Below are positions 3,444 to 20,262 of a stretch of DNA of 26,081 bases, one piece after another; within the stretch, counting starts at the first letter, position 1; each line of letters begins with the position of its first letter. The translations under genes were made by a program, and so were the position numbers. A model generated the notes under the pieces. The model was not told the origin of the DNA. It saw only the letters and a list, made by a program, of their open reading frames with translations, and searched no databases. The DNA comes from a virus, in IMG/VR virus record IMGVR_UViG_3300044641_000380, positions 1 to 26,081 of that record. One strand, written 5' to 3'.

Positions 3444-4463
3444 CTATTTTACAAAAACATCATTAATTTGTCTATTCACACGGATAAATGTCGTGCATTT
3501 ACTTAGTTGCTTGAGAGTGGGCGCACCTACATAAGTGCAGGTGCTACGCAGACCCCCTAGTAAATCTAACACAGTGTCCCGAACTTCTCCGCGATACGGT
3601 ACTGTAACAGTGCGGCCTTCACTGGATCGGTATTCTGCAACACCACCGTGATGTTTGTTCATAGCAGTATCAGAACTCATACCATAGAATGTAACAGTAT
3701 CGTCTTCTACAGTGCCACCGCCCTCATCGTGTCCTGCTAGCATTCCGCCTAGCATTACAAAATCGGCGCCGGCACCAAAGGCTTTAGCAACATCACCAGG
3801 ACAAGTACAGCCCCCGTCGGCAATGATATGCCCACCGAGACCGTGAGCAGCATCGGCGCATTCGATAATGGCCGATAGCTGAGGATACCCGACTCCAGTT
3901 TGGATGCGAGTAGTGCAAACGCTACCGGGCCCAATACCAACTTTAATAATATCTGCTCCGCGAAGAATCAACTCCTGTGTCATGTCTGCGGTAACAACAT
4001 TGCCTGCAATAATAGTAGCATGTGGCCATGCTTCACGGACTTCCTCAACATAGTCACCGAAAACATCGCTGTATCCATTGGCCACATCCATGCAGATAAA
4101 ATGAATTTCTGGATAGGAATTAATAATTCTGCTTAGGCGCTGAAAATCTTTAGTACTAGTTCCTGTGCTGACTGCCAAGTAGTTGCCACCAATCTTACCG
4201 ATAGTGTCGCCAAATTGGTCTTCGCTGTAGCTCTTAACTAGACAGGTAAACATACGATGCTCATACAGAGCCTCGGCCATTTCCAAGGTACCAACGCCGT
4301 CCATGTTTGACGCCATAATGGGAACACCAGTCCACTCAAAACCGCTGTGCTTGAACTTGTAGGTTCTAGTAAGATCTACTTCACGGCGACTTGACAGTGT
4401 GCTACGCTTAGGACGAATAAGCACATCACGAAAGTCAAGTTTGATATCGTCTTCGATACGCAT
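3444..4463 (-). CDS. guaC: GMP reductase (GuaC)
   Basis: GMP reductase uses NADPH to deaminate GMP to IMP. I start at ATG 4463 ([20 protein letters not shown], 339 residues; E. coli GuaC has 347) because family members begin exactly there. A longer frame upstream lies inside the glycosyltransferase gene. The catalytic loop [11 protein letters not shown] carries Cys183. It is followed by [21 protein letters not shown], split here at the conserved GVGYPQ, and the phosphate-binding [27 protein letters not shown]. There is no CBS domain insert, which together with the N-terminus favours GMP reductase over IMP dehydrogenase. The glycosyltransferase stop is one base upstream, so the two are probably coupled. 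It could rebalance purines from degraded host nucleic acid towards adenine nucleotides. Confidence 0.9.
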
Positions 4464-4464
4464 T

Positions 4465-5655
4465 TTAATATTTGTTTTCGTGTGTAAATTTACGATAATC
4501 TGTAGACATACGCAACCACTGTTCGCCCTGACCGTCGAGAATATCGCAGATACGATCAATGGTATTATCAGTCCAATCGCTGACTCGGCCCATATTTGCA
4601 TGAGGCCTTGTTAGCAATACCATGAGCTTTCGGATAGCATCCTCTAAGCTCCACGGGATGTAAAGTCGATCTCTATCATTGGCGAAAGTTTCAGGAAAGC
4701 TACGATATGCCGGATACAGTACATTACATCCAAGAGCATCGGCCTCTGATACGGTGTTTGAAACCCAATCTTGTAAAGCACAATTAAAAAGCACACGAGT
4801 ATCGTTGAGTAGATTGTAGTAGTCATTCTTTTCAAGATCCTCGTAGACAGTTAATAGTCCTTGAGCCTGCAGGTCTCTAGTACGAGCCATGTAGCTGTCG
4901 TTATTACTTTTTAGTTTAGCGCCACTGAAGATAGCAAACTCTACACGATCGCCAAGATTGTTAGCATCATGTCTACGATTCCATTCCTCAATGAGATCCA
5001 TGTAAAAGTCTGGTTGCTTTTCCTGATCCCATCGTGCCGCAAAGCCCACACGCATTTTCCGTTGATCAAATGGCTTTAGGTCACCGGACACACGACTGCG
5101 AACTTCTGACTTACCAAATGCTAATCCACTGATGTTGTAGATTGGAGCCTTCCACCCTGCAACCTTCATATGCATGACCATTTCTTCATTACTGGCCAGT
5201 ACACCATCAACAAACTCATTGACCATTTCTTCATACTTACGCATAAATCCTTGCATATCCCAGACATGCAAGAAGTCATCGGGGTCAATGGCCTGTGCCA
5301 GGCAGCGAACATAAACACGAGGACGATATTCCTTAGGAACCTGTTTAAGGATATAAGGGATACTGTCAATACCTGAAGTGTACATATCTTCAAAGTAAAT
5401 GACATCATCCTTGGTAACTTCACCTTGCTTCATCATTTTGACAAGGTTGGCCATTTGCGTAAGACTGTAGTAAGTACGCCCATGGGCGTCCAGTACCTGT
5501 CCTGTAACAATGGCTTGATCGTTGCTGAGAGTGTCGCCGGGCACCAACACATAGTCAATGTTGCGTCGACCAAACACAGCACGATTCCACTCTTGGAGTT
5601 GTAAGGTATAGCGAGCCTTATAGGGTTCGAGACCCATGTAATATAGTTTACGCAT
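4465..5655 (-). CDS. GT-B fold glycosyltransferase
   Basis: 396 residues from the ATG at 5655. An in-frame TTG one codon earlier is less likely, because the ATG shares a base with the preceding stop (TGATG) and has AAAGGAC ahead of it. The N-terminal half is an acceptor-type domain ([15 protein letters not shown] at the start, [15 protein letters not shown] in the middle). The C-terminal half looks like GT4-type nucleotide-sugar binding: [17 protein letters not shown], then VEFAIFSGA, then [26 protein letters not shown], split here at [10 protein letters not shown], which holds the acidic donor-binding residues. It would transfer a sugar from a nucleotide donor in the cytoplasm. The acceptor is unknown; modified phage DNA or a virion or cell-surface component are possible. 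It sits between a 135-residue unknown and guaC in a tightly packed run. Confidence 0.75.
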
Positions 5656-7605: not shown

Positions 7606-7815
7606 TTAACGATGATCGTCGTCAAAGTCAAGATATTCACGCTCGTCATACTGCTGTTTTCGTAGGCGAGCTAGCTCGTCTCGTACAGCCAGTTTTTCTT
7701 TTTTGAGTGTTTGTAATTGGTCGTCGGTAAATTTACCGGTGCGCTCTAAAGTTTCGATTTCTTTGTCTAAGCGATCATGCTCTTTTTCAAGATGGCGAAT
7801 GCGTCCTTCAATCAT
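7606..7815 (-). CDS. DUF465 (YdcH-like) coiled-coil protein
   Basis: 69 residues, a helical hairpin with strong heptad character: RIRHLEKEHDRLDKEIETLE, a short turn (RTGKFTDD), then LQTLKKEKLAVRDELARLRK. This is the arrangement of the bacterial YdcH/DUF465 family (LEKEH..LD..I..LE ... LKK.KL.LKDE). The C-terminal tail is acidic (YLDFDDDHR). The function of the family is unclear. The start codon overlaps the dpdA stop (ATGA), so the two are coupled and probably made in fixed ratio. A structural or adaptor role beside DpdA is possible but is inference. Confidence 0.72.
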   Translation of the reverse strand: MIEGRIRHLEKEHDRLDKEIETLERTGKFTDDQLQTLKKEKLAVRDELARLRKQQYDEREYLDFDDDHR

Positions 7816-9365
7816 TGTGCGGCCTCCAATTGATCAAGTTTACTTTGGTCTAACTCAATTTCCGACTCGGTGTCGGATTCTTCGATATGTTCAAATAGTG
7901 CATTGAACATGGTATTGGCATTCACAGTCTTTTTACCTTTAAAACCGCGAGTGCCTACAATTTCCATCCAATAACTGCTGTAGTGTCCAATGATCGATTC
8001 AGCAGTGGCCCGGTCCGGGGCAGCAAAGATACTTTCTACAATATCTTCAAAGTATTCAGCTGTAGGTCCGCTGTAGCGCATCATAGCAGGATGTTGCCCG
8101 GCATCAAATTCTCTGTTAGCTCGCTGTACTGCTTCGAGGTGCGTCCAAACATTATGACCCATTAACAGTGCATAACTAAAACTGTCCCAGCTGGTGCGTC
8201 CTTCTTTGCCAATTTTATTTAGATCACCGGGCTTATAAATGCAGATGTCTTTAATCTTTAGCATCCGGCTAATAGGACTTTCGTCAAAATGATTTACAAA
8301 GCCGTCGTTGATAATAACATCACTGTAGGCTCTGGTGTCCAAGGAATATTTTTTATCATCTACACTAGGACTCATCCTGTAGCACCACTTTTCGTCGTGC
8401 GGTAAATCGATGTGATGATAGACTTGTCCATTGGCTGTGGCCAGGAACGGACTGGCACAGTCAAAGCTAATAGTAAAGTTTGGATTAACATACTTTCTAA
8501 CTGCCCGTTGGATTACTGTGAGTAGCACAGCCCATTCTAATTTGCTAGTACCCAAGAAGTGCATCCAATCGTGGACACCTTCTTGTAGCAGATTATCATA
8601 GCGCAAGGCAATTAGACGCTTTAGTACCAGGTGTACATCACACATGTTTTGTCCACCCATGGCCCAGCCATCAAAATGAGTATCGGGATATTTCTGTGGA
8701 TCACAGTAGTCCTTCATCATCTGATACCATTCCTCGGCTGACCCATGGTTGTCGCCTTGTAACACATTTAAGAATCTTGCGCCACCATTCTTAACACCCT
8801 TACGGTGTTTCATAAAGTATTCGTTATTAAACTTTGTGGCGTCTACTGCTTCTTGTAGCGTGGTGATTTGACAGGCCTTTGATGCTTTCTTATCATGTAT
8901 GACCCAAGTTGGAATATCTAGGATCATACCATAGTCGGCAACATTGTCAAGCCAGTTCAAGATCAGTCCACGCTTCTTTTGTGCTTTAGGACATCCACTA
9001 TTGGCTCGCCAATCACCTTCCCACAGGCCTTTGGCAATCTGGAATCCTCCAGAGTCGCCTAATATGAATGTACCCGGTTCGCGGTTGCGAACCATGTCTT
9101 CACTCCAATCTTGTTTGGCAAGATCTAAGTTAGCATGACCACCAGAGTAAAGACTCCAGCGATAGGTAAACAGACCCTTGGCGCTGTTAAGCCAATTTAT
9201 CTGTTCCATGTCTGTTAGGCCGCTGGGAAACCTAGCAGGATCTACATACTGTTCATTTCTTTGCTTGCCCACAAAGGTAGCATAGAAACCAGAGATGGCT
9301 GGAAGAAATACAGCGTAGTCCTGTTGTTTAGCGGTTAAATTGTCTTGTGTTACAGCGTCAGTCAT
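7812..9365 (-). CDS. dpdA: DpdA-like DNA transglycosylase (TGT-related)
   Basis: 517 residues, related to tRNA-guanine transglycosylase. Visible active-site segments are GDSGGFQ (104-109; the Asp that acts as general acid/base in TGT), MILDIPTW (Asp150, substrate-binding position), FDGWAMGG (like the G.AVGG base-recognition loop), HFLGTSK (where TGT has YLMGVG) and SFDCASPF (301-307; Asp302 in the position of the nucleophile in FDCV.PTR). The CxCxxC zinc site of true tRNA enzymes is not visible in the C-terminus, and the protein is longer than bacterial TGT. Both points fit DpdA, which swaps guanine in DNA for a 7-deazaguanine such as preQ0. It is coupled to the sliding clamp upstream (1-base overlap TAATG) and to the DUF465 gene downstream. 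Modification protects phage DNA from restriction. Confidence 0.82.
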   Translation of the reverse strand: MTDAVTQDNLTAKQQDYAVFLPAISGFYATFVGKQRNEQYVDPARFPSGLTDMEQINWLNSAKGLFTYRWSLYSGGHANLDLAKQDWSEDMVRNREPGTFILGDSGGFQIAKGLWEGDWRANSGCPKAQKKRGLILNWLDNVADYGMILDIPTWVIHDKKASKACQITTLQEAVDATKFNNEYFMKHRKGVKNGGARFLNVLQGDNHGSAEEWYQMMKDYCDPQKYPDTHFDGWAMGGQNMCDVHLVLKRLIALRYDNLLQEGVHDWMHFLGTSKLEWAVLLTVIQRAVRKYVNPNFTISFDCASPFLATANGQVYHHIDLPHDEKWCYRMSPSVDDKKYSLDTRAYSDVIINDGFVNHFDESPISRMLKIKDICIYKPGDLNKIGKEGRTSWDSFSYALLMGHNVWTHLEAVQRANREFDAGQHPAMMRYSGPTAEYFEDIVESIFAAPDRATAESIIGHYSSYWMEIVGTRGFKGKKTVNANTMFNALFEHIEESDTESEIELDQSKLDQLEAAQ

Positions 9366-14248: not shown

Positions 14249-14261
14249 TCAGAGCTCTGAC
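14248..14261. repeat. perfect 14-base palindrome at the stop of the 1162-residue gene
   Basis: GTCAGAGCTCTGAC is a perfect palindrome covering the last codons and the TGA stop of the 1162-residue gene. It could be a protein-binding site or, as RNA, help mark the 3' end of that transcript. It has no loop as a single hairpin, so a cruciform or dimer-binding site is more natural. By itself the biological meaning is uncertain. Confidence 0.45.
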
Positions 14262-17200
14262 GCCGATGATTTATTCATTTTAGACAGATCAACAATCAAG
14301 CTGTCAATTTTAGCTTCCAAGTGATCAATGTCTTGCGATTGACCCCGATCTATACGGCCTTCTTTTTCGAGCTCGTCATGTACAAAGCGCATAAATGCTT
14401 CGTTTTCATCCTTGCTGTCAGGATAGCGGTGTTTAGCCTGTTTTAGAAAATTTTGAAATTCAGTGTCCAGTGCTTCGCCAAGGCTGATGGTATTACTTGG
14501 TTTAAAGATCTTACTAACAATGCCTGTGACATCCTGACCATCAATGGCTTTTAAGTTTTTTAGTGTCTCAAAATCTTTGGATCTTACCAAATAGCTCAAT
14601 GCTGACTTAACAGAATTTAACGCTGGTGCGCCCGACCTTAGCATCTTAGTAGAACCGTCATTCATGTCTAAACTAATGGTGCCGGCAGCTTCGTTGACGG
14701 ATTTGTTAGCATACGGAAATACAGTTTCCCATTTGCCATCTAGGCCTTTTTTAACATAGTGCCCGGGTTTAAATTTACTAGGAAAATAACCTAAGGCCTT
14801 CATCGCCTGATCAGGAGTGTCTTTGTATCCTTCGCTGCGAGCTTGGCCAAATTTAGCATGGCTCCACATACGCTGTTTTAATTTACCATCACTGGGATCA
14901 AATCTGTACAGTACACTAGATTCCTCTTCGGCTCGCTCGCGATGTTTCCAATCTCGATTACTACGGTCGCCGTATTCTTGTTCTCTTCGTTCGTCGTCGG
15001 CAGGATTGTAATATCCACGACTATATGGACCTGCTTCTCTTACATTATTTGTAGCCATCGGTTTAACCTTACTAACCCATTGTTGATATTCGTCCTGATT
15101 GTGAAACTTTTTAACTGTTTTTTCTTTGGCAGGAACATTTTGTTTGGCAAAAAACTTACGCATCTGCGAAAGTTTTGTTGGGTCTTGAGCGTCTAGATTG
15201 CCAGCGAAATAGTCGCGCATGGTCGCTAGACTTGCTTCATCGACACCTTGATCTTTGTTAACTGGTACATTTTTATAAACACGCTTAACAGGATCCCATA
15301 CAGTTTTAAGAGGACCTTGCTTGGCTCGTTGACCCACACGTTTGACCATATCTTGATACTCTGGACCGTAGTCGGCTTCTTTGCTCGAAGCTGGACCTTG
15401 CTCTTTTATTCCCTTGGCTATGTCTGCCTTGACTTTAAGAGTGGCAATCTGTTGGGCTGTTTGATGGGCCCGAGCAGTGTTTCTTCCCGCCAGGGCTTGG
15501 TCGTAATATTTTTTATAGTTCTTGTGGTTGACGATTTGATCACCAGTTGTACCATGAGCTACAGTTGAAACTGTGCTGGTCTGAGCCGGGGCGGCAGCAG
15601 CTGGTGTTGGCGCTAGTGCAGTAAGTCCTGCTAGGCCTAATGCTGCTAAATTTTGTTTCCACCCTTCATCTACGCCTTCGTTCTGTGGTTCATAATACCA
15701 GCCCATGCCTGGATCATCGTCTCCGGTGCGTCGGGGATTATCAAACTTGAAATAAGCAATCTGATCACGGCCTTCTGCATCATCCCAGTAGCCTTTGAAT
15801 ACGCCAGTGGCTTTGTCAAACTCTTCATCATCAAAATGGTCAGCTTCAAAGCGTCCAAAGAAGTCTATACTACGGTTATAGTGTTCTGGCTGCGGATACT
15901 TGTATGGATCCTCGCCACCGTCGTCGCCGCCATCTTTATCAAAGGAAAACTCATTTAGGCCCTGACTTCTATGCGCTCTATACGGGTTCATGAAATCTTC
16001 GTCCCAGTGGCCTTCTTTCACAGCCCAAGCAAAATCTGTCAGTCGTCCCAGGCCACCGCCGATTTCACCAAACAAGTCAGCCAGCTTTGTTACCTCGCTG
16101 GCTGTGGCACCGGTTCCGTCCTGTATCAGACCAATGATCCAATCAATATCTTCGTTGTCAATGGCTTGGTTGTATCGATCCCAAAGTTTAGGATTTTGCA
16201 CAACACGCTCGCCCAATCTGCCTAGCTTTTTGACCAGGGCCCATTCACGATCCATGGGTTCGGCGTCTTCCGCCACACCTTGGTCTTCAGGTAAATGCTT
16301 TAACATAGTAGTAGTTAAAACAAATGTATCTTTGTACTTGCCATCTTCGCCGGCGCGACTTGGGTCGTCTAACTTAACTTCGACATTGCCGTCAACATTA
16401 ACATTTTTAGATACAGAAACAATAGTTCCTGTGCCCATTGGAGATTCAACGCGATCGCCAACACTGTAGGTATTCTTAAAGCCTTCCGCCACACCTTCCC
16501 TGGTCAAATGTTGAGCATCACCAGATTGACGCCAACTCTTCCATGCTGCTTTAGCATCGTCACTTCTAGTCTGACTTGGCTTTACTGAGTTGCCCAGCAT
16601 CTTAGCGTAAGCATACATAGTTGACATTATTCCCTGTCGTTGGTATTTTGGATCTACACGAGTCCATTCACTTTCCAACCATATGCGCTTGGGAGTTGTT
16701 TTGGGGTCTGCGAAATCATCAAATGGGGCTGATTGATACATCAATTCAGCATAACCTATTTGTTTGTTACCGTGATAGGCAGTGATTTTCAACCCTTTGC
16801 TCCAGTACCGTGCCACATATAGATAATCGCCGATCTGTTGTTGATGGCTGAATTCTGGATTGGTTATGTCTGGGTTGATGGCCTCCGTTACACCTTTGAT
16901 AGTATAGTCTGGACGACTACGACCTGTTTCTTGATGTAGGTCTTTCAGTGCTTCTATGGCATCTTCTCTACTGTCGATGAAATCATATCCACGGTCCGCA
17001 CGATAGTGAAAAGCACCCCAACTATTACCGTCTTGATAAATTTCGCCTACTGGCTTGCCATTCTTACTCTTGATTACTTCGGCATTAGGGTAGATAGTAT
17101 CACTGGAGCCTTCCGCCACATCTTTTTTATTGAAATGTTGTTCGCTGTGTTTCTTTGCTACTGCCTGTGCTTGATTTATTCTGTCGTATCTTTTACTTTG

Positions 17201-17737
17201 CCAATCACAATTAGGTTCCATACATTTTGCGTGATAGGCTCTAGTGCCATATACCTCAGTTTGAACTATGCCTGCTTTAGCAGTTTGTGATTCCGCCACA
17301 CCTTGTTTAGAATTTTCAAGTTCTCTGCGTTGTTTGCGAATAACAGTCAATGCTTGTAGAACAGTTTTCTTCGTCAGCTTGCCTTCGCCAGCCATCAATC
17401 GAATATCTTGCATGCCGATTCCATCACTGGTTTTTTTGCCCGACTGTAATAGTTTTATGTCAGAGTCTTCCGAGCCTTCCGCCGCACCTTGGTCTTCGAC
17501 TTTAACGCAATTGTTAACTCTGACTCCACCCTTCATCTTGGTACCGGCTTTGCGATACCCGGTCCAGCATTTAGGGTCTAGTCTTTGTTTTTCTTCGTCT
17601 TTACGCTTGCCAAAAGTATTATGAACTAATGTATCTAAGTCGGCATGAAATTCAGTTTCTTTTTCTTTGCTGATTCCGCCATTGGGATCAGCTGATTTTT
17701 TTTTGCGTAGGCTTTGGTCTAGTTCAAAAATGTTCAT
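14249..17737 (-). CDS. 1162-residue modular protein with repeated prohead-protease-like sites
   Basis: 1162 residues cut into blocks by short motifs of the form (V/L)-x-E-(G/A/S/D): VAES 147-150, VAEG 207-210, VTEA 283-286, VAEG 416-419, VAED 488-491, VDEG 689-692, VDEA 832-835, VREA 899-902, VNEA 1014-1017 and LGEA 1086-1089, plus AAEG 85-88. T4 gp21 cuts at (I/L)xE|(A/G), so these could be prohead protease sites. Blocks include CWTGYRKAGTKMKGGVRVNN near the start, a C2H2-like finger (Cys172, Cys177, His197, His201), a GNAT-like block (VDPKYQRQGIMSTMYAYAKM, residues 361-380), a KOW/SH3-like strand block (YSVGDRVESPMGTGTIVSV) and an Ala/Pro hydrophobic segment (693-720). It overlaps the 508-residue gene (ATGA). 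Probably a head-packaged cargo protein; this is inference. Confidence 0.75.
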   Translation of the reverse strand: MNIFELDQSLRKKKSADPNGGISKEKETEFHADLDTLVHNTFGKRKDEEKQRLDPKCWTGYRKAGTKMKGGVRVNNCVKVEDQGAAEGSEDSDIKLLQSGKKTSDGIGMQDIRLMAGEGKLTKKTVLQALTVIRKQRRELENSKQGVAESQTAKAGIVQTEVYGTRAYHAKCMEPNCDWQSKRYDRINQAQAVAKKHSEQHFNKKDVAEGSSDTIYPNAEVIKSKNGKPVGEIYQDGNSWGAFHYRADRGYDFIDSREDAIEALKDLHQETGRSRPDYTIKGVTEAINPDITNPEFSHQQQIGDYLYVARYWSKGLKITAYHGNKQIGYAELMYQSAPFDDFADPKTTPKRIWLESEWTRVDPKYQRQGIMSTMYAYAKMLGNSVKPSQTRSDDAKAAWKSWRQSGDAQHLTREGVAEGFKNTYSVGDRVESPMGTGTIVSVSKNVNVDGNVEVKLDDPSRAGEDGKYKDTFVLTTTMLKHLPEDQGVAEDAEPMDREWALVKKLGRLGERVVQNPKLWDRYNQAIDNEDIDWIIGLIQDGTGATASEVTKLADLFGEIGGGLGRLTDFAWAVKEGHWDEDFMNPYRAHRSQGLNEFSFDKDGGDDGGEDPYKYPQPEHYNRSIDFFGRFEADHFDDEEFDKATGVFKGYWDDAEGRDQIAYFKFDNPRRTGDDDPGMGWYYEPQNEGVDEGWKQNLAALGLAGLTALAPTPAAAAPAQTSTVSTVAHGTTGDQIVNHKNYKKYYDQALAGRNTARAHQTAQQIATLKVKADIAKGIKEQGPASSKEADYGPEYQDMVKRVGQRAKQGPLKTVWDPVKRVYKNVPVNKDQGVDEASLATMRDYFAGNLDAQDPTKLSQMRKFFAKQNVPAKEKTVKKFHNQDEYQQWVSKVKPMATNNVREAGPYSRGYYNPADDERREQEYGDRSNRDWKHRERAEEESSVLYRFDPSDGKLKQRMWSHAKFGQARSEGYKDTPDQAMKALGYFPSKFKPGHYVKKGLDGKWETVFPYANKSVNEAAGTISLDMNDGSTKMLRSGAPALNSVKSALSYLVRSKDFETLKNLKAIDGQDVTGIVSKIFKPSNTISLGEALDTEFQNFLKQAKHRYPDSKDENEAFMRFVHDELEKEGRIDRGQSQDIDHLEAKIDSLIVDLSKMNKSSASEL
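17466..17491 (-). repeat. 26-base repeat copy 1 (in the 1162-residue gene)
   Basis: Matches 18671-18696 in the other gene at 25 of 26 bases. It codes QGAAEGSED here; the single difference changes Val to Ala. The frame is the same in both genes. Confidence 0.85.
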
Positions 17738-19260
17738 ACTTTTGCCTGTGGATTTGCCTGTTGAATAATTTTATCGTACTGTGTTTTTAACCCAGCATTG
17801 GCCTTAATCTTTTCTAATGCATCTTCTTGATCAGGATTCAATTTCATAGGTTGTCCTGTTTGTGCCGGCTTGGCCTGAGTCATAAGTTTATCCAACTGAG
17901 CTTTCATGGTTGGATTAGTTTGAATTTTGTTTAATGCTGTTTGCTCGTCAGGGCTAACGCTGCCTGTGGCCGGGGCAGCATTGGCAGTAGCAGTAGCGGC
18001 CGGATTAGCCGTGGCAGTTCCAGCTGGTGGAGTTGGAGGAGTAGCACCAAGTTCACTGAGCTTTTGTTCTGCGGTCATGCCTTCTTCCATGTTACCCAAC
18101 ATCTGTTCAACATGACGAACCCAACCGCTGACATCACTGCTACCAATTTCTTCCACATCGCCCACAAAGTCTGAAACTTCATCAATGGCATTTAAAACTT
18201 TTTCTGGACCATACTTGCTTAGTAAGTCCGTGCGCTGAAGCATGATTCTACGAGTAATAGCACCGGCCACTGGACTATCGTTCATGCCTTCTGCTATATC
18301 TTGCTCTGGCAGTACCGGAGATTTATGTTTGCCTAAGCGACTACGAATGTGGTCTTTTTTATCCTGTGTGGGGATAAGTTGCTGAATAGCTCGTGGCCGA
18401 TCGCCCTTTTTCCAATCTTTAGGATTGTTAATATAGTAACCTCTACCTGGTTCAATTCCAAAAGTCGCAGTGTCGCTTTTTGGTAGCTTAGAACCAATGG
18501 TTACTGGGCCTACCTCCGTCACACCTTGCTTTTTAGCTTGTTGAATCTTTGCTTGTATTGATTTTAACTGTTTGCTCAGTGGGTCGTCTAGGCCAATACG
18601 ACCACCGTCTTTTACAATAGCATCAATCTTGTCGCTGATTTTGCTTGCTTTAGCTTTTAATGATGCTAAATCTTCCGAGCCTTCCGCCACACCTTGATTT
18701 TTTTGTGCTTTTTCGAGTTCACGAATACGGGCCTGTGTCTCTGCTTGACGCTGTAGTGATGCACGACCGTGTTCGGCATTCTGCCGTAGTTTTAATCTCT
18801 CTAGTTCTTTCTCAGGAGCTTCCCCACCTTCCGCTACACTTTTATTTTTACGCTCTTTTTCTTTGCGTTCGTATTCTCTTCGATCAAATTCTCTATCTGC
18901 TTGCCTCTGTGCAGATGCAGTGCCATCTGGATTAGTTGCACCTTTAGAATAATCTCCGTATCCTGCAGGAGGTAAATCTCTTGCTACGCCTTGCTCGTCC
19001 AATTCTTCTTTTTCTTTTTTCTCGGCTTTTTCTTTGGCCTGTAGGTCTTTGAAGTCTTGATACTTCTTAGCTAATCTATCTTCTAGAGTTGTATCTTCTC
19101 CTACCAAGCGGCCTTTAAAAGGATGATCCTTGCCGCCAGTCTTGGCTTTATCTGTACCGCGAACTTGATCGCCAGGCTTTTGTCCTACTTCTTCACCGGC
19201 ATACTTTTGCTGGCCTTCTAGTAGTTTAACTAGTTTAATCATGTCGTCATTGTGGTTCAC
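17734..19260 (-). CDS. 508-residue modular protein with the same protease-like sites
   Basis: 508 residues from a GTG at 19260, chosen because AAAAGGAAA lies upstream and GTGA overlaps the preceding stop. The ATG six codons on lacks a ribosome binding site. Candidate sites are LLEG (13-16, a full T4-type match), LVGED (52-56), SVAEGG (141-146), GVAEGS (190-195), GVTEV (246-250), IAEG (322-325) and a degenerate GVARD (91-95). The first third is highly charged and helical (KEKAEKKEKEELDEQ, FDRREYERKEKERKNK). An Ala/Thr/Pro linker at 404-434 precedes a duplicated C-terminal unit (436-465 and 475-504). No catalytic motif seen. Its 3' end overlaps the 1162-residue gene start (ATGA), so the pair is co-translated. 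Likely the same class of internal head or scaffold-associated protein; unproven. Confidence 0.72.
   Translation of the reverse strand: MNHNDDMIKLVKLLEGQQKYAGEEVGQKPGDQVRGTDKAKTGGKDHPFKGRLVGEDTTLEDRLAKKYQDFKDLQAKEKAEKKEKEELDEQGVARDLPPAGYGDYSKGATNPDGTASAQRQADREFDRREYERKEKERKNKSVAEGGEAPEKELERLKLRQNAEHGRASLQRQAETQARIRELEKAQKNQGVAEGSEDLASLKAKASKISDKIDAIVKDGGRIGLDDPLSKQLKSIQAKIQQAKKQGVTEVGPVTIGSKLPKSDTATFGIEPGRGYYINNPKDWKKGDRPRAIQQLIPTQDKKDHIRSRLGKHKSPVLPEQDIAEGMNDSPVAGAITRRIMLQRTDLLSKYGPEKVLNAIDEVSDFVGDVEEIGSSDVSGWVRHVEQMLGNMEEGMTAEQKLSELGATPPTPPAGTATANPAATATANAAPATGSVSPDEQTALNKIQTNPTMKAQLDKLMTQAKPAQTGQPMKLNPDQEDALEKIKANAGLKTQYDKIIQQANPQAKV
17749..17955 (-). repeat. duplicated 30-residue helical unit at the C-terminus of the 508-residue protein
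   Basis: Residues 436-465 and 475-504 align without gaps: PDEQTALNKIQTNPTMKAQL against PDQEDALEKIKANAGLKTQY, each ending in a Lys/Gln-rich helix and QA(K/N)P. They are separated by nine linker residues. This is an intragenic tandem duplication that has diverged at the protein level. Confidence 0.75.
18671..18696 (-). repeat. 26-base repeat copy 2 (in the 508-residue gene)
   Basis: Partner of 17466-17491 with 25 of 26 identical bases. It codes QGVAEGSED in frame. The shared block crosses gene borders, so it cannot be due to homology of the two proteins as a whole, which are otherwise dissimilar around it. Confidence 0.85.
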
Positions 19261-19628
19261 GGCATTTTCCTTTTAACAATTTTTCTTTTTTTAAACAGTG
19301 GCTCTGCAGGACCTGTTGCAATGCTACTGCTAGTAGTACCGCAGGCATCGGCATCTTCGCCTAGTCTCTGTCCTGTTTTAGACATTAACTCGTACTCAAG
19401 GTATTCTTTAACTGTGCGACAATAGTCATTGGCCAGTGTAATCTTTTCACTGACCCAACCATCCAAGCCAGTAGTTTCGCTGACCTGTTGTAGTAATTTG
19501 TGTAGTTCAATTGCGTTGCTGGCAATATGATAGCATTCTTCGCGGGCCATTTGTACTTCGTGGTCTTGATGCATTTTTTCAGCATCTGCCACAATGGCAA
19601 CTTTGGGCATAAAGTCTGAGGTTTTCAT
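19257..19628 (-). CDS. 123-residue helical protein, unknown function
   Basis: 123 residues. The first two thirds are helical and rich in His, Gln and Glu (KMHQDHEVQMAREECYHIAS, IELHKLLQQVSETTGLDGWV, KITLANDYCRTVKEYLEYEL). The remainder is a short linker with LGED (99-102, a possible prohead-protease-type site), a Ser/Thr stretch (GTTSSSIATGP) and a basic tail (KKRKIVKRKMP). The stop overlaps the GTG of the 508-residue gene (GTGA). A CTAAATA box lies eight bases before its ATG, overlapping the stop of the nucleotidyltransferase gene. The operon position suggests it works with the two modular proteins, perhaps as a head or scaffold component. I do not recognise a family. Confidence 0.68.
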   Translation of the reverse strand: MKTSDFMPKVAIVADAEKMHQDHEVQMAREECYHIASNAIELHKLLQQVSETTGLDGWVSEKITLANDYCRTVKEYLEYELMSKTGQRLGEDADACGTTSSSIATGPAEPLFKKRKIVKRKMP

Positions 19629-19635
19629 GATACTA

Positions 19636-19642
19636 TATTTAG
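19636..19642 (-). promoter_or_regulatory. CTAAATA box ahead of the 123-residue/polyprotein operon
   Basis: CTAAATA on the minus strand, overlapping the TAA stop of the nucleotidyltransferase gene and only seven bases before the ATG at 19628. If it acts like the T4 late box, transcription would start at or within a few bases of the start codon, which would give a nearly leaderless mRNA. No ribosome binding site is visible ahead of this ATG, in keeping with that idea. Confidence 0.42.
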
Positions 19643-20262
19643 CCTGTTAATTTAGTCTGTAATATGTGCAAGACTTGATCGTTGTAATCGCCAAACAAAT
19701 CCTGCACGATAGCTTTTTGAGTTTCTTCATCAGCGGCTGCAAATTTCTTACGCACTTCTGTGGCAGAAGTCATAGGACGACCTAGTAAAGTAAATGGGAA
19801 TGTAGGCACAACCATTATATAGCCATGCTGGTCGAAAGTTTTCATGCTGGCTGGATTAGCAGGCATAGGCTGAAAGTAACTTGGAGTACCGTCTCTTTTG
19901 GTCCATGACTTAAAACGCGGATCTTCTGCCATGTCTTTTTCGCTGACAGCAAAGATTAATTTAGTAGCGGCAGGGTTATAGTTAGCAGTGATTTCTTCTG
20001 CTTTATAGGGTTGTGTGCTTTGTACAACACGATCCAGTGGCACACCAGTTAATGCCATGAACTGTGTTTTTTCACTGAAGCTAAAAGGACTACGAGGTGG
20101 TTCTACTTTATTGCTACTGGCAATAAAAACGCTGTCACGACTAAACTTTTTTACAAGATAGTCGTAGACAGCTCGGTGTCCTTTGTGGAAGGGTTGGAAA
20201 CGCCCCGGATAAACTACCAGGGTGCCTGCTCCGTCATTTTCAAATAAGTCGTTTAAAAACAT
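19639..20262 (-). CDS. HxGH nucleotidyltransferase (NMN/cytidylyltransferase-like)
   Basis: 207 residues. VVYPGRFQPFHKGHRAVYDY carries the HxGH nucleotide-binding motif (HKGH, residues 26-29), and PMTSATEVRKKFAA has the second signature (like ISSTxxR, Arg171). Enzymes of this fold transfer an adenylyl or cytidylyl group, for example to nicotinamide mononucleotide (NadM), and NadM-like proteins occur in large phages. FASSNKVEPPRSPFSFSEK-type residues after the first helix fit substrate binding. I cannot decide the substrate from sequence. A short N-terminal extension (MFLNDLFENDGAG) precedes the first strand. The gene begins immediately after the CTAAATA inverted repeat and ends against the 123-residue gene. 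Confidence 0.78.
   Translation of the reverse strand: MFLNDLFENDGAGTLVVYPGRFQPFHKGHRAVYDYLVKKFSRDSVFIASSNKVEPPRSPFSFSEKTQFMALTGVPLDRVVQSTQPYKAEEITANYNPAATKLIFAVSEKDMAEDPRFKSWTKRDGTPSYFQPMPANPASMKTFDQHGYIMVVPTFPFTLLGRPMTSATEVRKKFAAADEETQKAIVQDLFGDYNDQVLHILQTKLTG

Follow-up and report, generated by a model that had tools for sequence, protein, structure and literature searches.

Chained modules in two overlapping genes of an apparent jumbo T4-like phage: probable head-packaged cargo polyproteins with a conserved DNA joint

Two long phage genes whose products are punctuated by repeated short hydrophobic-x-Glu motifs raise the question of whether these products are cut into pieces and, if so, by which protease and to what end. 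The genes lie in a 26-kb IMG/VR fragment (26,081 nt, IMGVR_UViG_3300044641_000380; hereafter the window, meaning the whole stretch of DNA analysed), which by sequence comparison is from a jumbo T4-like phage. A preliminary description of this DNA had proposed an internal head polyprotein cut by the prohead protease, and this reading is supported wherever the sequence can test it: by gp21 in relatives, by motif enrichment in gp22, by Glu at module junctions and by targeting peptides. We consider it probable that both genes encode head-packaged cargo polyproteins cut by gp21. Both open reading frames (ORFs) are present where they had been placed:

14249..17737, minus strand: 1162-amino-acid (aa) modular protein, 12 [ILVM]xE[GASD] sites, about 12 modules
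17734..19260, minus strand: 508-aa modular protein, 6 [ILVM]xE[GASD] sites

The two genes share 4 nt (ATGA), and the 508-aa gene also overlaps its upstream gene. When compared with shuffled sequences, the 12 occurrences of [ILVM]xE[GASD] in the 1162-aa protein stand against 4.1 expected (P 0.0002) and the 6 in the 508-aa protein against 2.4 (P 0.025), while the narrower G[VIL]xE[GASD] is found 6 times in the larger protein, with 0.3 expected. The array of 18 hydrophobic-x-Glu-small sites is real and well over chance, but its characterization as mostly GVAEG was overstated: the exact motif occurs only twice, once in each protein (Val 191 in the 508-aa protein, Val 416 in the 1162-aa protein), and VAE six times. 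The supposed spacing of 60-200 residues did not hold, the glutamates being 40-143 residues apart, plus one pair at 6. For related viruses, a cleaned set of 83 modular proteins contains 463 matches to [VIL]xE[GAS], versus 135 ± 12 in shuffles.

The view that the intervals are separate small domains is borne out. We split the window proteins at the motifs and searched the pieces against all fetched DNA of related viruses (handles beginning with L or G), and the intervals proved to be mobile modules, shared at identities of up to 98% by proteins that are otherwise unrelated:

18679..18825, minus strand: module 146-194 of the 508-aa protein, adjoining in L106 a module that is here in the 1162-aa gene
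18520..18678, minus strand: module 195-247 of the 508-aa protein, found in four other proteins at 81-96% identity
18079..18285, minus strand: module 326-394 of the 508-aa protein, present in 13 copies whose neighbours vary
17492..17596, minus strand: CWxGYxxxGTK..NCV module (1162-aa protein, residues 48-82), also found in cyanophage proteins
17111..17290, minus strand: module 150-209 of the 1162-aa protein, copies in L020 (98% identity) and L024 (87%)
16883..17110, minus strand: module 210-285 of the 1162-aa protein, five copies with differing neighbours
16484..16882, minus strand: module 286-418 of the 1162-aa protein, GNAT acetyltransferase-like, 98.5% identical in L061
16268..16483, minus strand: module 419-490 of the 1162-aa protein, 81% identical in L069, flanked by two GVAEG joints
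15665..16012, minus strand: module 576-691 of the 1162-aa protein, copies in L023, L010, L076 and L125

The copies of module 150-209 in L020 and L024 always follow VAE↓S (the arrow marks a known or predicted cut), and in L025 this module stands alone after MKTFSAFIKQNVAE↓S; in L106, module 210-285 is followed by one that in the window belongs to the 508-aa gene. Among 689 internal homology ends in the cleaned set, 27.9% lie at most 6 aa from a joint, versus 8.9% (standard deviation 1.1%) for random placement, and the pieces between motifs are therefore the units of exchange. The GNAT-like module scores 21.1 bits for PF00583 against a cut-off of 20.7, and domain-like modules in relatives include methyltransferase-like, DUF192, TonB_2 and DUF6321 ones. 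Since Pfam and PHROGs yielded few informative matches to the window proteins, identification was made via modules in related viruses; a tblastn search of the 508-aa protein against phage records gave no match, and AlphaFold2 modelling of four chained modules (12 sequences) was poor (mean predicted local distance difference test score, pLDDT, 47), so that the model was set aside. A modular protein at L022:9851-13030 carries, between GVAEG joints, GNAT-like and DnaJ-zinc-like modules and a module with a TAT signal and a TonB C-terminal domain.

What, then, is conserved at the boundaries, a DNA repeat or a protein site? The joint is a DNA sequence of 18-20 bp that is conserved at the codon level, and several copies lie in the window (P1 being the residue before the predicted cut, P3 two residues upstream of it and P1' the residue after the cut):

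18679..18696, minus strand: joint QGVAEG (CAAGGTGTGGCGGAAGGC), 508-aa protein
17466..17496, minus strand: decayed joint GAAEG, DNA repeat retained, Ala at P3
17288..17305, minus strand: joint QGVAES, 1162-aa protein
17108..17125, minus strand: joint KDVAEG, 1162-aa protein
16481..16498, minus strand: joint EGVAEG, 1162-aa protein
16265..16282, minus strand: joint QGVAED, 1162-aa protein

The decayed copy may mark a lost site. The 14-mer GGTGTGGCGGAAGG occurs 306 times in the loci, every time in a long ORF and in the GVAEG frame, and codons in the joint are far off background, GCG being used for Ala in 92% of cases versus 10% (in a sample partly selected by DNA). In the subset of loci not selected by joint DNA, conservation is limited to about -5..+14 round the motif. 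The 18-mer has 26 matches in 257 Gb of cellular genomes, always single and near the chance expectation. These features could be explained by the alternative raised in the preliminary description, a flexible linker copied around: a short DNA repeat would be copied from place to place, the linker that it encodes would never be cut, and the long multidomain proteins, whether in the virion or in the cytoplasm, would stay whole. A joint of only about 20 bp, conserved in DNA with rare codons and unlike gp23 sites in its consensus, speaks for this, and the DNA part of that proposal stands. We nevertheless consider an uncut linker unlikely, since hydrophobic-x-Glu is kept where the linker is absent, since the same modules also follow targeting peptides ending in xE, and since gp22 has the same motif excess.

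The first of these points comes from 142 junctions, with related junctions counted as independent, at which a homologous module follows another upstream neighbour and GVAE is lacking. The residue at position -1 of the module is Glu at 54% of them (background 7.3%, P 5e-49), and at every other place between -6 and +7 Glu stays at or below 17%; where Glu is at -1, position -3 is V, I, L, M or F in 77% (background 21%, P 3e-25). P2 and P1' are free (P1', n = 77: G 25, D 17, K 8, S 7, E 6, A 6). Thus, hydrophobic-x-Glu is retained at the boundary without the DNA linker, in a pattern that appears to follow gp21 logic. An earlier conservation test on 146 candidate proteins (P1 Glu conserved in 65%, versus 46% for other Glu) also took in non-modular ORFs, DNA polymerase among them, which weakened its signal; the cleaned and anchored tests were substituted for this reason. 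We conclude that the joint would be both a DNA seam for module exchange and an encoded cut site.

As to the protease, T4 gp21 cleaves after L/I-x-E (PMC9026906). At least 80 other contigs encode a DNA polymerase 79-85% identical to that of the window, and the nearest cultured kin are the jumbo T4-like phages Phosso, Atu_ph07 and the 121Q group. The search for a gp21-type protease advised earlier was successful in such relatives, with matches above the Pfam cut-off in 10 related records, and the aligned proteins retain the HP and GVSSRG motifs of T4 gp21 and the following Asp. One of the ten is the best large relative, G016 (374 kb; DNA polymerase 82% identical to that of the window), which groups its portal, gp67-like, gp21, gp22 and gp23 genes in one place and elsewhere holds the locus of the window, that is, a NadM-like gene (110543-111289), a 644-aa protein orthologous to the 508-aa protein (107683-109617) and an 808-aa modular protein (105255-107681). 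In G002 the head genes are in T4 order and a modular gene lies 2.6 kb past gp23. Downstream of a relative's head genes is a collagen-like protein of 1328 aa (L002:15226-19212), and a kinase-like protein (L002:8015-8662; PHROG of the T7 protein kinase type) that starts MKINQIVNE↓ is encoded between gp23 and a modular gene.

In G016, gp22, a scaffold of a type known to be cut by gp21, tops the motif excess among 495 ORFs (14 versus 2.6 expected), and it shows a high excess in G002 and G004 as well. Its sites, predicted by motif, have L 53, V 39, I 29 and M 17 at P3 (Val 39/138), and the joints V 346, L 89, M 61 and I 53. Val at P3 and a free P1' deviate from the exact T4 gp21/gp23 pattern and would suit another protease, of host or phage, cutting after Glu following synthesis or injection; but gp22 of the same phages is rich in VxE sites and the targeting-type N-termini, with the same site class, indicate the prohead, which makes this explanation highly improbable. 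Jumbo phages phiKZ and SPN3US likewise process head proteins after Glu and eject part of them (PMC5694885, PMC13282480), but with another protease type and an S/A/G-x-E motif (PMC13282480), mostly at N-terminal propeptides, and shuffled module chains are not described for them; processing of the phiKZ type was discounted here on account of the hydrophobic P3, in place of S/A/G, and of protease type.

The N-termini also resemble those of T4 internal proteins. T4 IPII and IPIII begin MKTYQEFIAE↓A and IPI begins MKTFKEFTSTTTPVSTITE↓A, and candidate targeting peptides of this type, about 7-19 residues long with a gp21-type end, are found on the 508-aa protein, on the NadM-like enzyme and on the orthologues of both, as well as on orthologues of a 123-aa protein:

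19216..19260, minus strand: N-terminal peptide of the 508-aa protein (residues 1-15), capsid-targeting-like, ending LLE↓G; [LI]xE kept in 7 orthologues
19257..19628, minus strand: 123-aa protein, a single copy of a module internal to other modular proteins
19639..20262, minus strand: NadM/NMNAT-like enzyme with the N-terminal extension MFLNDLFE↓N, kept in orthologues

[LI]xE↓ is near the start in 7/7 N-terminal orthologues of the 508-aa protein seen (LLE↓, IHE↓), and an internal Met at position 7 would make a 9-residue peptide. The 123-aa protein of the window itself begins MKTSDFMPK, with MPK in place of a site, and its orthologues begin MKTTDFITE↓N, MKTTDFIVE↓N, MKPAEFIVE↓N and MNSKQFLKE↓G. 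A WSxKYKxSINCSH... module stands directly behind MKLSEIIIE↓, MKIREVINE↓, MRSSEFVFE↓ and MELKPIMLE↓ and also behind internal sites, and one gene of G002, ahead of a 930-aa modular gene, encodes a protein with MKTFAQYLTE↓S. N-terminal trimming of the modular proteins is very probable, and cleavage at the internal joints is likely, with somewhat less confidence. Orthologues of the NadM-like enzyme begin MFVSELFE↓D, MYVADLFE↓N and MFINELLE↓S, and other NadM homologues in the loci begin directly at the enzyme, without the extension. Because the extension is kept in orthologues and NMNAT has been found in cyanophage virions, it is likely that this NAD enzyme is carried in the head. In G016 (103509-104144, minus strand; L269:3509-4144) a protein carries a TAT signal and a GH19 chitinase/lysozyme domain (PF00182) behind the targeting-type N-terminus MRATEFVTE↓, and could possibly be a packaged enzyme that is exported after injection.

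Is there evidence from virions? The virion proteome of cyanophage S-SM1 includes the cytidylyltransferase T4-GC190 (PMC3037559), and that of S-SCSM1 comprises 45 proteins, NMNAT among them, for which the authors propose virion carriage (PMC9602691). SSCSM1_29, labelled 'virion protein' in the S-SCSM1 record, a label that we take as marking detection by mass spectrometry, is a 517-aa protein whose modules DACYHKVKSRY..., CWxGYxKKG... and DUF6321 also occur in the jumbo relatives; its family, phrog_727, matches residues 41-89 of the 1162-aa protein weakly (E 0.002). This links the module family with virions, though not so far with the inside of the head, and we regard the modular proteins as very likely virion components. 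The cyanophage T4-GC119/phrog_727/DUF6321 proteins (SSM2_109, SSCSM1_29), located near gp16/gp17, share the modular build and some of the same small modules, but their joints are less regular and the GVAEG DNA repeat was not seen; the papers found on them do not describe them as cargo polyproteins.

Would the pieces be kept or discarded? T4 core proteins undergo many gp21 cuts and mostly leave the head (PMC9026906), and T4 gp22, gp67 and gp68 have many [VILM]xE sites within one protein, as here. With this precedent, and with gp22 showing the same motif excess, the products might be disposable prohead-core proteins like gp67/gp68, cut by gp21 only for clearance and never delivered. Such a fate is very unlikely in our view, because the intervals are conserved domains (GNAT over the cut-off; DUF192, TonB_2, DUF6321), related modules occur in an annotated virion protein, and waste would give no reason for domain exchange at cut sites. 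There is also a likeness to T4 IPI, IPII, IPIII and Alt, in which a gp21 site closes a short targeting peptide at the N-terminus; the internal head proteins of T4 are also small and fast-changing, and gp21 is present in the genomes of the relatives, although T4 has one cargo protein per gene and here modules are chained, with repeated sites, and exchanged between genes.

We propose that gp21 would process each chain, which consists of small domains, some enzyme-like (GNAT), with linkers ending in (V/I/L/M)-x-Glu. An N-terminal peptide resembling T4 capsid-targeting peptides would take the chain into the prohead core, where a gp21-type protease would strip it and then cut after the joint glutamates, leaving separate small proteins in the mature head. 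The freed modules may enter the host along with the DNA, as T4 IPI-III and Alt do; delivery is favoured by our reading, less firmly than cleavage. The cargo list would alter through recombination at the 18-20 bp joint, with the frame kept and the cut site encoded. We lean, to a similar degree, towards a shared pool of effector modules swapped in frame at the joint, each swap giving a new released, head-packaged protein. Of the elements of a viral polyprotein, the putative domains and sites are present in the window and the protease is found in relatives only.

Several observations weigh against these gp21-cut cargo polyproteins. The chief difficulty is the misfit between joints and the capsid protein: when gp23 is aligned with the LTE↓A site of T4, its predicted sites read LKE↓N, LAE↓N and LAE↓S, so that P3 is Leu and P1' is Asn or Ser, whereas the joints prefer Val and Gly. 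In addition, gp21 is absent from the 26-kb window, which is only a fragment. The strict T4 rule, [IL]xE[AG], matches 3 times in the two proteins together versus about 2.1 expected, and exact matches therefore carry no weight by number alone; LLEG and LGEA, once stressed as exact, are in this respect no better than chance, but the N-terminal LLE↓G is conserved as [LI]xE. Targeting-type N-termini are only about twofold over shuffles genome-wide (G016: 15 versus 7.2), the bare motif at N-termini is weakly enriched (4.3 versus 3.5 per 1000), and the targeting-peptide evidence thus depends on orthologue conservation; a clear N-terminal site is lacking in the 1162-aa protein itself. Given the codon-level conservation of the joints, part of their sameness is DNA history and not protein selection. 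Finally, related junctions are not independent as the junction test treats them, and the link to S-SCSM1 consists of a few shared modules in a protein whose 'virion protein' label does not mean head interior.

The internal proteins of T4 are few and vary among phages; among them are a protein that counters restriction and one that modifies RNA polymerase. Targeted and trimmed internal proteins and multiply cut core proteins of T4 are already known, as are the ejection proteins of phiKZ and SPN3US. No counterpart came to light for exchangeable cargo modules strung together by a conserved DNA joint that encodes the cut site: literature searches for GVAEG in phages and for shuffled head polyproteins found nothing of this kind. 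If the proposal is true, T4-like phages of fresh water and the sea, a large and uncultured group, carry many internal proteins, chained and punctuated, and the punctuation becomes a search key, since splitting at (V/I/L/M)xE would list candidates for proteins that are injected early and take over the host, most of them without known function. It would also represent a plug-in delivery system evolving by recombination, and a natural case of recombination joints doubling as protease sites.

Elsewhere in the window, inspection by eye revealed a TGT/DpdA-like protein with GDSGGFQ (7812-9365), a FolE-like gene (1104-1889) and a GMP-reductase-like gene (3444-4601), which are perhaps a set for 7-deazaguanine DNA modification.

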